A stretch of DNA of 64,000 nt, from contig JAPJBO010000215.1 in assembly GCA_030068145.1 (NCBI GenBank), forward strand, positions 62,001-126,000, read 5' to 3'. The position numbers and the translations under genes are program-made. Shown here piece after piece: positions 56,570-62,236 of the stretch (its first letter is position 1; each line of letters opens with the position of its first letter). The stretch is from Diplonema papillatum (lineage: Eukaryota > Euglenozoa > Diplonemea > Diplonemida > Diplonemidae). The notes under the pieces were generated by a model, which did not search any database, was not told where the DNA came from, and saw nothing but the letters and a program-made list of their open reading frames with translations.

Positions 56570-57161
56570 CACACACACACACACACACACACACACACAC
56601 ACACACACACACACACACACACACACACACACACACACACACACACACACACACACACACACACACACACACACACAACCACACACCACACACACACACA
56701 CCACACACACACACACACACACACACACACACACACAACACACACACACACACACACACACACACACACACACACACACACACACACACACACACACACA
56801 CACACACAACACACACACAACACACACACACACACACACACACACACACACACACACACACACACACACACACACACACACACACACACACACACACACA
56901 CACACACACAACACACACCACACACACACACACACACACACACACACACACACACACACACACACACACACACACACACACCACACACCACACACACACA
57001 CACACACACCACACACACACACACACACACACACACACACACACACACACACACACACACACACACACACACACACACACACACACACACACACACACAC
57101 ACACACACACACACACCACACACACACACACACACACACACACACACACACACACACACAC
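56570..57161. repeat. (AC)n microsatellite, 592 bp, left of LINE-C
   Basis: Nearly pure AC with occasional CACC or AACA interruptions. It starts about 68 bp upstream (minus sense) of the PH-like gene ATG and ends 72 bp before the open frame of LINE-C. His/Thr and Cys/Val frames across it are artefacts. Confidence 0.97.
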
Positions 57162-57232
57162 GCCGTAAGAGCCCGACCGCCGGGCCGCAACGGCAGCAAC
57201 ACGAACCACAGAGCCCCGGACGAGCGGAATAA

Positions 57233-60200
57233 CAGCCGAAAGGTAACAGGCCAGTGAATCCACAAGCTCGGCCGCGAGCGGTATCCGTTGACGCGCAATG
57301 TCGGCAGCAAAGGACGGCGGAAGGCGGAAATGGACAGTTAGATGAGGTGGCAGGCTTACTGGCGGCGAAGCGTGTGCTGATAGAGGAAGACGGAAATTGC
57401 CAGTTTGCAGCGCTTGTAAGAGGAAGCAAGTTGAGTCTCGCGGCGGCGTCGTTGCGACAGAAAGTAACGTGGCAGCTCCGAAGTCTGCCACCTGCAGCTC
57501 TCCCCCTCGAAGGCCAGACGCGCTCCGAATACCTATACAACATCGCGCAGAACGGCGCGCACGGGGATCACACCACGCTACAGGCAGCCGCGGAGGTACT
57601 GAAGGCAAGTATATGGGTCCTCTCAACAAGGGACCTAACGCAACTACGGCGAGAGGGGAGGGCGGAGAACCCATCACGGGTAATCGTGCTGACCCACCGC
57701 ACACAACATTATGACGCGCTCAGACTTCCCTACCTAGCTTTGAGGTTTCTGGCTTCCTTAGCCCCCGAGACAACCCAAGCAAGTGTGGAGGAGCTGACAC
57801 TCGCTGTCATGCCTCGACCAGCAGCCGGGGTGGACAAACCGCGCAAAGCGAGCACGATTGTCCTCGCCACGGTGAATCTGGGTTCCCTGAACTCAAGGTG
57901 TCGCGCGGTGGCAGCGCTACCGGCGGACATAGTAGCCTGTCAAGAGACGCGGGTGGGCCCGGAGGGTAAAAGAACGTGTGAAATGTACCTAGGAGCATAC
58001 GGCAAGCAATGCTTCTGGGGGGAAGACGTCCCGATAGTCGTCGGCGCGAACGGGATAGGGCAGCGCGCGCCAGGCGGCACAGCCGTCATAACACGCAGCA
58101 GCATGGTAGCGTCGAAGGCGCACCCAAAGACAGCGCTGGAGACAAGATTAGCGGAAAGCACTCGGGTGGCCCACGCCGTGGTAGCAACGGGGAATGCCCG
58201 CTCGGTATTGCACGTAATTTCGGTGTACGCACAAGTAGGAAAGGAGTCAGGTGTTGTCAGGGAGCGGGAACGGTTCCTGTCTGACGTATTTGAAATGGCG
58301 GCGGGGCTCGGGCAGGTGCCGGTAGCCATCGTGGGGGACTTCAACACAACGATAGAAGAAAGTCTCTCCCTAATGAGTGCCTGCCGAGGTGGGTGGACGG
58401 ACGCGGCGGCAGCGGCTGCAACGAATGCGGCACAAGAGCCGCCGCCAACCTGCTGGGCAGGAGCGGCAGGCACGAGGATAGACATGTGTTTCCTGAACGC
58501 AGGTGCATCGCAGGCACTCGTCGAGGTTCGAACTGCAGACCCGCAACAATACGAGATACCGACCCACTGTCCACTGTTCGTAACTCTCGACATGCGGACA
58601 GCGTCAATTCCGAAGCGGACGCATTGGATTCCCGCCCCCTTTCCGAAGAAGGCGCCGCTTAAGAACCCGAGGGAAGAGCAGGGTGCCCTTAAAGCGGCGC
58701 TGAGCCAGAGGCGCTCGGTGGACGGGGCGGAAGCGGTTCTGCGTAACGCCTCCGAAGTGGCAGAGACGTACCTATATGAAATGCACAAGCACGGCCTCCA
58801 GAAAAGTGAAGCGAAGGCCTGCAAGGGCAGGGCAGAAGGGCACTCGGTACGAGAAGCCCATGTTTCAGCCCGGCAGGCGGTCTCAGCGAGGGGAGCAGGA
58901 GATAGGACCACCAGACAACGGGACAAAGTGCTTGGAATGCTACGGACGGTGATTGTCGAGGCAAGCCACAGGCTGAGCGAGGGGCAGCCAGGAGAGATGA
59001 CGTTGGCAGAGCGCAATGCGAGAAGTGCGCTACAGCGGAAAGGACCGAGAGAGGACCTGTCGCGGCATCTGTCCGCGGCCCACGGAGAAAGCGGAGGCGA
59101 CGAGTTGGAGCGCCTGATGAAAGCTGTGGAGGCGTTGGAAGGATCTCAACGCGAGGCCGTCGCCGCGTTGAAGCAGCAACGAACAAGAAGGTGGAAAGAC
59201 CGGATGCAGATGGCCTGGAACAGCTCCGACAAAGGCGACGTGTACCGGTTTCTTGCGGGGAGCCGAGAAAGCCCATCGATCTACCTGCGGCGGCGAGACG
59301 GAACTTTAACGGCGTGTCCAAAGGAGATCGACGATCTGTTGAGGGGACCCGAAGCATGGGGAGGCATTTTTCAGAAATACACGAGCATCCGGGAACCGCA
59401 GTGGGAAACCTTCAAGGCACAATACGCGAGGTATCTCCCGGCCCCACAGCGAATGGACTGCAAGGCAATCAGCGCGGCAGATGTGAAGGCGGCGCTTAAG
59501 AAGATGAAGAGGAACTCTTCACCCGGACTGCACGCGTGGAGAGTTTTCGAACTGCAGCAACTGCCCACGGAGATCCTGCAACTCATGGCTGAGGCGATGA
59601 ATGCGGTCGAGACCGAAGGGCGGTGGCCAGAGCAATTGATGCACGCGATCCTGCACCTATTGCCGAAGCCAGGGAGCACGGGCGACCCCTTGTCGCAGCG
59701 ACCAATAACGATCACACCGGTGCTGTATAGAGTATGGGCAGCAATACGGGCCCGGGAGGCGTTGGAATGGATGGATAACGTTGTGCCGAGCGGCCTCCAC
59801 GGATGCCGGAAGAAGCACGGGACGGACGACCTGGTCTGGCACCTGGCAGCTCTCATCGAGGAAGCACACCTGACAGGAGAACCATTGTACGGCCTGGCCC
59901 TCGATTTTAAGAAGTGTTTCGACACGGTGCCGATCGATATCGCCTTCCGGCTAGCAGAGGAGCTGGGGTTTGACCCAACCGTGTTGCGAACCTTGCGCGC
60001 AGCATACTCCGGCATGCAGCGCCACTTCCGCATGGGACCCGTGGTGGGAGAAGGCTTCGTGCCAACAAACGGGATCATGCAGGGATGCCCGTTGAGCGTG
60101 GTGCTGATAAACGTGCTCATAAGCGTCTGGATGCGGCACGTAGCGGACATAGAAGCAGCGATTCCGCTATCATATGTGGATGATGTGTACGCGTTGCTGA

Positions 60201-61702: not shown

Positions 61703-62008
61703 GAAGCCCCGATGCAAGGGATGTGCGAAGAAGCGCCTGCCAGCGGAGACCTGTTGCCGGTATAAACAGCACCATCATGATGGAGATGGCCTAAGGCCGC
61801 GGGTGCAATTCTGCACAGCCCACAGACTGGAGCGCTGCGGCGAGTGTGAAGCTGACAATGAAGGAATCGCGAGGTGCTGTTCGAGGCACCACCCCCAGTT
61901 GAAAACGGACCCCTACTCGCAACCTGCGGGAGCATCGGCGGTTACTTGAAACTGAAGGAGGCGTGGACGCCCCTCGCTCAGGGAGGCACCACGTGAAAAC
62001 AGGTCTAC
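61703..62008 (+). other. LINE-C 3' untranslated region
   Basis: About 300 bp between the ORF2 stop and the second (AC)n tract, ending GTGAAAACAGGTCTACAA. It contains CACCATCATGATGGAGATG and no further frame. No poly(A) tail is present; the element passes directly into (CA)n. Confidence 0.7.
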
Positions 62009-62236
62009 AACACACACACACACACACACACACACACACACACACACACACACACACACACACACACACACACACACACACACACACACACACACACACA
62101 CACACACACACACACACACACACACACACACACACACACACACACACACACACACACACACACACACACACACACACACACACACACACACACACACACA
62201 CACACACACACACACACACACACACACACACACACA
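62009..62236. repeat. (AC)n microsatellite, 228 bp, right of LINE-C
   Basis: Uninterrupted CA repeat directly following the LINE-C 3' end. With the 592 bp tract on the other side it either marks the original (AC)n target or is partly the element's own tail. Confidence 0.95.

Follow-up and report, generated by a model that had tools for sequence, protein, structure and literature searches.

Families of the Tx1 clade target microsatellites, and Dualen elements carry a cysteine protease domain. Most reported target-specific families belong to the early-branched groups, Tx1 and R1 (PMC4640811), and within the R1 clade Mino is described as inserting into AC repeats (PMC3124438, citing Kojima and Fujiwara 2003). 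According to PMC4640811, some HERO families also target microsatellites, using an RLE, and Dualen carries both APE and RLE endonucleases together with an RNase H. OTU domains are reported from Ginger1 (PMC2836005) and Helitron/Helentron (PMC4067079) transposons, and in PMC11943222 an OTU-domain gene and LINE-like elements occur as separate items. Judged by titles and abstract openings, none of the open-access papers listed in our searches describes a LINE joining OTU, APE and RT domains.

The window, a 64-kb stretch of DNA from Diplonema papillatum, contains one long reading frame with these three domains between two AC microsatellites. The reading that we place first, at roughly even confidence, is that of an APE-type non-LTR retrotransposon with an N-terminal OTU-like domain, inserted in an (AC)n microsatellite. 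The ends of the insert were taken as the points at which the AC tracts stop and have no independent definition. The features of the locus are as follows.

56570..57161 (+): (AC)n tract on the left, 592 bp, interrupted 13 times by a single-base break (AA or CC)
57162..62009 (+): presumed LINE insert, 4,848 bp between the AC tracts, ends set by the tracts alone
57162..57253 (+): 5′ leader, 92 bp, from the end of the left tract to the start of the frame
57254..61702 (+): open frame, 1482 codons, with its earliest in-frame ATG at 57809
57389..57715 (+): OTU-like cysteine protease domain, from DGNC (residues 46-49) to HYD (152-154), by Pfam and motifs
57902..58570 (+): APE-type endonuclease, residues 217-421, continued to PTHC (436-439), by Pfam and motifs
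59663..60415 (+): reverse transcriptase, residues 804-1054, with SYVDD at 973, by Pfam and motif
61202..61279 (+): CCHC zinc finger at residues 1317-1342, resembling zf-RVT, with a score below cut-off
61703..62009 (+): 3′ stretch, 307 bp, from the stop codon to the right AC tract, final bases GTCTACA
62010..62236 (+): (AC)n tract on the right, 227 bp, unbroken

The earlier note had described a single ORF of 1482 codons joining OTU-like, APE and RT domains, and this description is borne out by the frame and by Pfam, with the count starting at a GTG. The stop-free frame extends over 1489 codons, compared with a longest frame of 405 codons when the 4,848 bp enclosed by the tracts were shuffled 200 times. 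Position 57230 holds an in-frame TAA. The earliest in-frame ATG (57809) corresponds to residue 186, between the OTU domain and the endonuclease and just ahead of the latter, such that a version of the protein started at AUG would comprise 1297 codons and leave out the OTU domain. The same note had called the element an apparently intact candidate for activity; the frame itself is intact, but "intact and active" is unsupported, as an in-frame AUG is missing from the OTU part. No long terminal repeats were detected, as comparison of the insert with the window (blastn, E up to 1) returned itself, 17-bp and 21-bp matches elsewhere, and one internal 18-bp pair. One copy of a 31-bp tandem repeat located at 141-462 (10.4 copies) has an exact 17-mer in common with 61987-62003 (E 0.075, possibly chance), a stretch that stops 6 bp short of the right AC tract. 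By eye, short palindromes lie directly 3′ of that tract, and the region that follows it (62237-63850, +) holds a 532-codon frame, gag-like in appearance, for which a query from an internal Met gave no Pfam match over cut-off.

When the whole protein was searched against Pfam, the reverse transcriptase matched RVT_1 (residues 804-1054, 6.2e-19) and the region upstream of it matched Exo_endo_phos (residues 217-421, 3.9e-10), in support of the architecture of an APE-RT LINE. The LINE motifs are found at residues 361 (GDFN), 408 (RID), 436 (PTHC), 973 (SYVDD), 1320 (CPYC) and 1333 (HLFWKC), and both the YVDD reverse transcriptase and the endonuclease with THC in place of SDH, as noticed earlier, are thus present. 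The Pfam endonuclease match stops ahead of PTHC, the final motif, in which the Asp of the usual SDH is replaced. A second LINE in the window keeps SDH, and therefore one of the two endonucleases in the window is without this aspartate. The CCHC finger that had also been proposed is recognizable from its Cys and His motifs, CPYC and HLFWKC, but its zf-RVT profile match (0.03, 15.4 bits) falls below the cut-off of 27.5. Among solved structures the best matches are LINE-1 ORF2-type chains (8c8j, an RNA-directed DNA polymerase, 6.6e-13; ORF2 protein, 1.2e-12), with R2-type chains ranking behind them (2.9e-7 and weaker), and the order is the same with the RT part alone; the endonuclease segment alone matched none of the solved structures at E values up to 10. 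In NCBIfam the sole match is to a group II intron RT and is distant (3.8e-8; 32.9 bits, where the cut-off is 300), and PHROGs gave a reverse transcriptase match (1.4e-5).

The OTU-like domain was searched for both within the protein and as a separate segment. Residues 30-185 scanned alone match PF02338 at 27.1 bits (6.3e-6) and residues 1-195 at 26.3 bits, each above the Pfam cut-off of 23.3, while the whole-protein scan yields 22.0 bits (2.5e-4), such that the profile check succeeds for the segment and narrowly fails for the full protein. The profile match spans residues 46 to 130, beginning at DGNC (46-49), the candidate catalytic Cys motif, and ending ahead of the histidine. The latter would be supplied by HYD at 152, which lies outside the PF02338 match, is aligned weakly to the HYN of OTUD5 (E 0.16), and also falls within a Peptidase_C65 match at 0.055, below cut-off. 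Structure prediction with AlphaFold2 without an alignment was uninformative for the OTU part (mean pLDDT 35.8). The proposal of an OTU-like domain with DGNC and HYD motifs therefore holds by profile search and motif positions; we regard the domain as real and the catalytic Cys/His pair as likely.

Since the first in-frame ATG lies past the OTU domain, translation of this domain needs a non-AUG start or another device. The OTU part may thus be made from a non-AUG start or via some other device, or else its start codon may have been lost in the present copy. Candidate non-AUG starts in good context, for which we required a purine at -3 and a G at +4, are the ACG codon at 57314 and the GTG codon at 57347. 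The first 99 bases of the insert (57162-57260) outdo 199 of 200 shuffles in folding (z -2.6) and are the only one of four folded stretches to stand out, as the longer 57162-57311 (z -0.55) and two stretches 3′ of the frame fold no better than their shuffles. An HDV-like ribozyme at the 5′ end was considered and rejected, with no such Rfam match in 57130-57420 and no match in a home-made layout scan; positions 57130-57420 gave no Rfam match of note, and 61690-62020 gave Rfam rows at chance level only. During retrotransposition, the OTU domain would most likely strip ubiquitin from proteins of the element or of the host.

Among described elements, Mino and the R1 clade share with the OTU LINE an APE-type endonuclease, a reverse transcriptase and an association with AC repeats, a likeness drawn from the domains and the flanks of one copy, although the OTU LINE has PTHC in place of SDH. 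To our knowledge, an OTU domain is not a feature of R1 elements. APE and RT are also common to Dualen/RandI and the OTU LINE, which was not filed under Dualen because RNase H was undetected (no row in the Pfam scan at an E limit of 10, where HMMER filters can drop weak matches) and because an RLE was not recognizable in the C-terminus, where nothing past the CCHC finger matched Pfam. Since, in addition, the PD of VVPDIAP in the C-terminus is not shared by a cousin in the window, we lean towards the absence of an RLE from the encoded protein. Insertion into simple repeats is shared with Tx1-clade families and with HERO, although HERO uses an RLE, and an OTU-like cysteine protease is likewise encoded by Ginger1 and Helitron/Helentron, but these are DNA transposons, not LINEs. 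The element works as an APE LINE. A distinct LINE lineage in which APE and RT are fused with a deubiquitinase-like OTU domain, and which begins at a non-AUG codon, targets (AC)n and has an endonuclease without the SDH aspartate is a possibility that we put forward tentatively.

The bracketing of the frame by (AC)n was claimed for tracts of 592 bp and 228 bp; both tracts exist and the first length is correct, but the right tract measures 227 bp. They are in the same orientation, the left one stopping 92 bp before the frame and the right one starting 307 bp after it. They are the sole pure (AC)n or (GT)n tracts of at least 16 bp in the 64-kb window, and the three dinucleotide tracts of at least 16 bp in the window, two AC and one (AG)n, are all at or near LINE frames. 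The array nearest in composition is (ACAAAC)n at 6292-6800 (509 bp), beside which no LINE protein match was found. AC on both sides of this one copy suggests, without proving, the targeting of such repeats. Following established LINE biology, the endonuclease would nick an (AC)n tract on its GT-rich strand and the freed 3′ end would prime reverse transcription of the element RNA (target-primed reverse transcription); the 3′ end of that RNA (...CUACA, or read-through AC) could pair with the freed end, and second-strand joining would then leave AC at the 5′ side. Target-site duplications would not be visible because the site is a dinucleotide repeat.

From this single copy, the element probably prefers AC tracts rather than having landed in one by chance, a judgement that we hold at slightly less than even confidence. 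In favor of the first reading as a whole are the domains, the ranking of LINE-1 ORF2-type chains among solved structures, the weak alignment of the OTU histidine end to OTUD5, the low chance of a random hit on AC (see below), the fact that the only pure AC/GT tracts of at least 16 bp in 64 kb flank the LINE insert, and the entry of the second LINE's frame into the only other dinucleotide tract of such size, (AG)n at 48620-48666. Weighing against that reading are the single copy, the tract-defined ends, the unequal breaks, the lack of an AUG for the OTU part, the endonuclease segment without a solved-structure match and with a Pfam match that ends ahead of PTHC, and a C-terminal cousin (52077-53087, -) whose matched stretch has no tandem array in the 3 kb around it. 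The main rival, which we consider somewhat unlikely, holds that the element made the right (AC)n itself as a 3′ tail during reverse transcription, as do other LINEs ending in short repeats, and that the left (AC)n is an older or unrelated microsatellite at the 5′ junction, with no targeting involved. In its support, the 13 breaks are all in the left tract and the right one is pure. The (AG)n lies on the 3′ side of the second LINE, which has no tandem array from 43,738 to its start at 45,466, and this would fit a tail; in addition, green-algal SINEs with RandI/Dualen partner LINEs are listed with short 3′ repeats, (ATT)n among them (PMC3747384). A tail of this kind needs a separate cause for 592 bp of same-orientation repeat just before the frame, in a window with no other pure AC tract. 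The break counts can be read in more than one way. The difference between 13 and 0 has P = 0.014 assuming independent breaks, a value that is weaker because breaks cluster. One old tract split in two predicts equal wear, which the observed counts do not show. The difference would fit a freshly made 3′ tail on the right; it could also be due to technical indels on the left, as all 13 breaks are single-base doublings without G or T, a pattern that could equally stem from sequencing or assembly.

Chance landing of a non-specific LINE in a microsatellite of a microsatellite-rich genome is an improbable account, as AC makes up 819 of the 59,152 bp in the rest of the window and occurs at the LINE site alone, giving about 1.4% per random insertion (a post hoc figure from one locus), although random insertions do land in microsatellites. 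Less probable still, in our estimation, is an assembly artefact in which AC-ended contigs were joined over a collapsed or expanded repeat. Long dinucleotide arrays are difficult to assemble and all 13 breaks of the left tract are of the indel type, but one long frame lies in the stretch between the tracts and the window contains zero N bases. Insertion of an OTU-bearing APE LINE into (AC)n stays our preferred reading.

Relatives of the element were sought in the window and in sequence collections. The C-terminal cousin is 26% identical over residues 1123-1468 (E 7.7e-13; 29% in a pairwise alignment) and is encoded by a frame at 50898-53432 (-), for which no RT part was matched in the window. 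From the aligned sequences, the tail (CCHC, then IAP...DWL.GL.W) is a module common to the OTU LINE and the cousin, although the cousin does not keep the PD of VVPDIAP. By eye, the part of frame 50898-53432 (-) related to the OTU LINE C-terminus is followed by a Cys/His-rich stretch and then a basic tail. The second, more distant LINE (45466-48674, +) has a reverse transcriptase that matches that of the OTU LINE at 5.9e-10. It consists of two overlapping frames, APE with canonical SDH and then RT, the second of which runs into the (AG)n at 48620-48666; its coordinates are those of its frames. Searches of viral and prokaryotic contigs with the whole protein and with a two-sequence C-terminal alignment, of phages and plasmids by tblastn, and of viral contigs with the second LINE, the OTU part and the exact 21-base pattern of the 3′ junction found no relatives, misses that say little because the collections are viral, plasmid or prokaryotic. 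A possible resemblance of the OTU LINE to dinoflagellate LINEs is a lead only; no dinoflagellate spliced-leader relics with up to 3 mismatches occur in the window. A Mutator-type transposase frame at 40611-42620 (-) was also observed (Transposase_mut 5.5e-10, MULE 6.7e-8), with tandem repeats in its C-terminal part.

Elsewhere in the window, Rfam identified six pieces of eukaryotic rRNA.

14675-15067 (+): eukaryotic rRNA piece
15107-15495 (+): eukaryotic rRNA piece
22886-23073 (+): eukaryotic rRNA piece
24165-24244 (-): eukaryotic rRNA piece
31164-31429 (-): eukaryotic rRNA piece
36965-37152 (-): eukaryotic rRNA piece

These pieces, which correspond to positions 963-1383, 1457-1888, 2623-2802, 24-103 and 2134-2331 of the LSU models and 1229-1473 of the SSU model, are scattered over both strands in scrambled order. 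In the alignments, conserved cores are retained and some stems are altered on both sides. A second Rfam scan recovered five of the six, missing the piece at 22886 (51.6 bits, gathering 50), and the piece at 15107 fits well only across approximately its first 100 bases. On this evidence they may be either a cytosolic rRNA in scrambled and fragmented form or pieces of rDNA that were dispersed; the papers listed in a literature search on this all deal with mitochondria, judging from titles or abstracts. A repeat of some 150-165 bp is located at 9364-9530, 16621-16800 and 31424-31588 (93-99% identical pairwise), the last copy overlapping the 5′ end of the SSU piece by 6 bp. The 300 bp upstream of the six pieces show no match among one another, which counts against a shared promoter, and no tRNA was found in the window. 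The rRNA fragments are possibly the window's most interesting feature and may matter more than the OTU LINE.

If AC targeting is true, the locus would present target specificity in an OTU-fused, APE-type LINE, and whether the deubiquitinase-like domain aids integration would become testable, such aid having been proposed for the OTU and Ulp1 domains that DNA transposons encode (PMC2836005). An endonuclease lacking the SDH aspartate and directed at a dinucleotide target would then offer a handle on how APE specificity changes.
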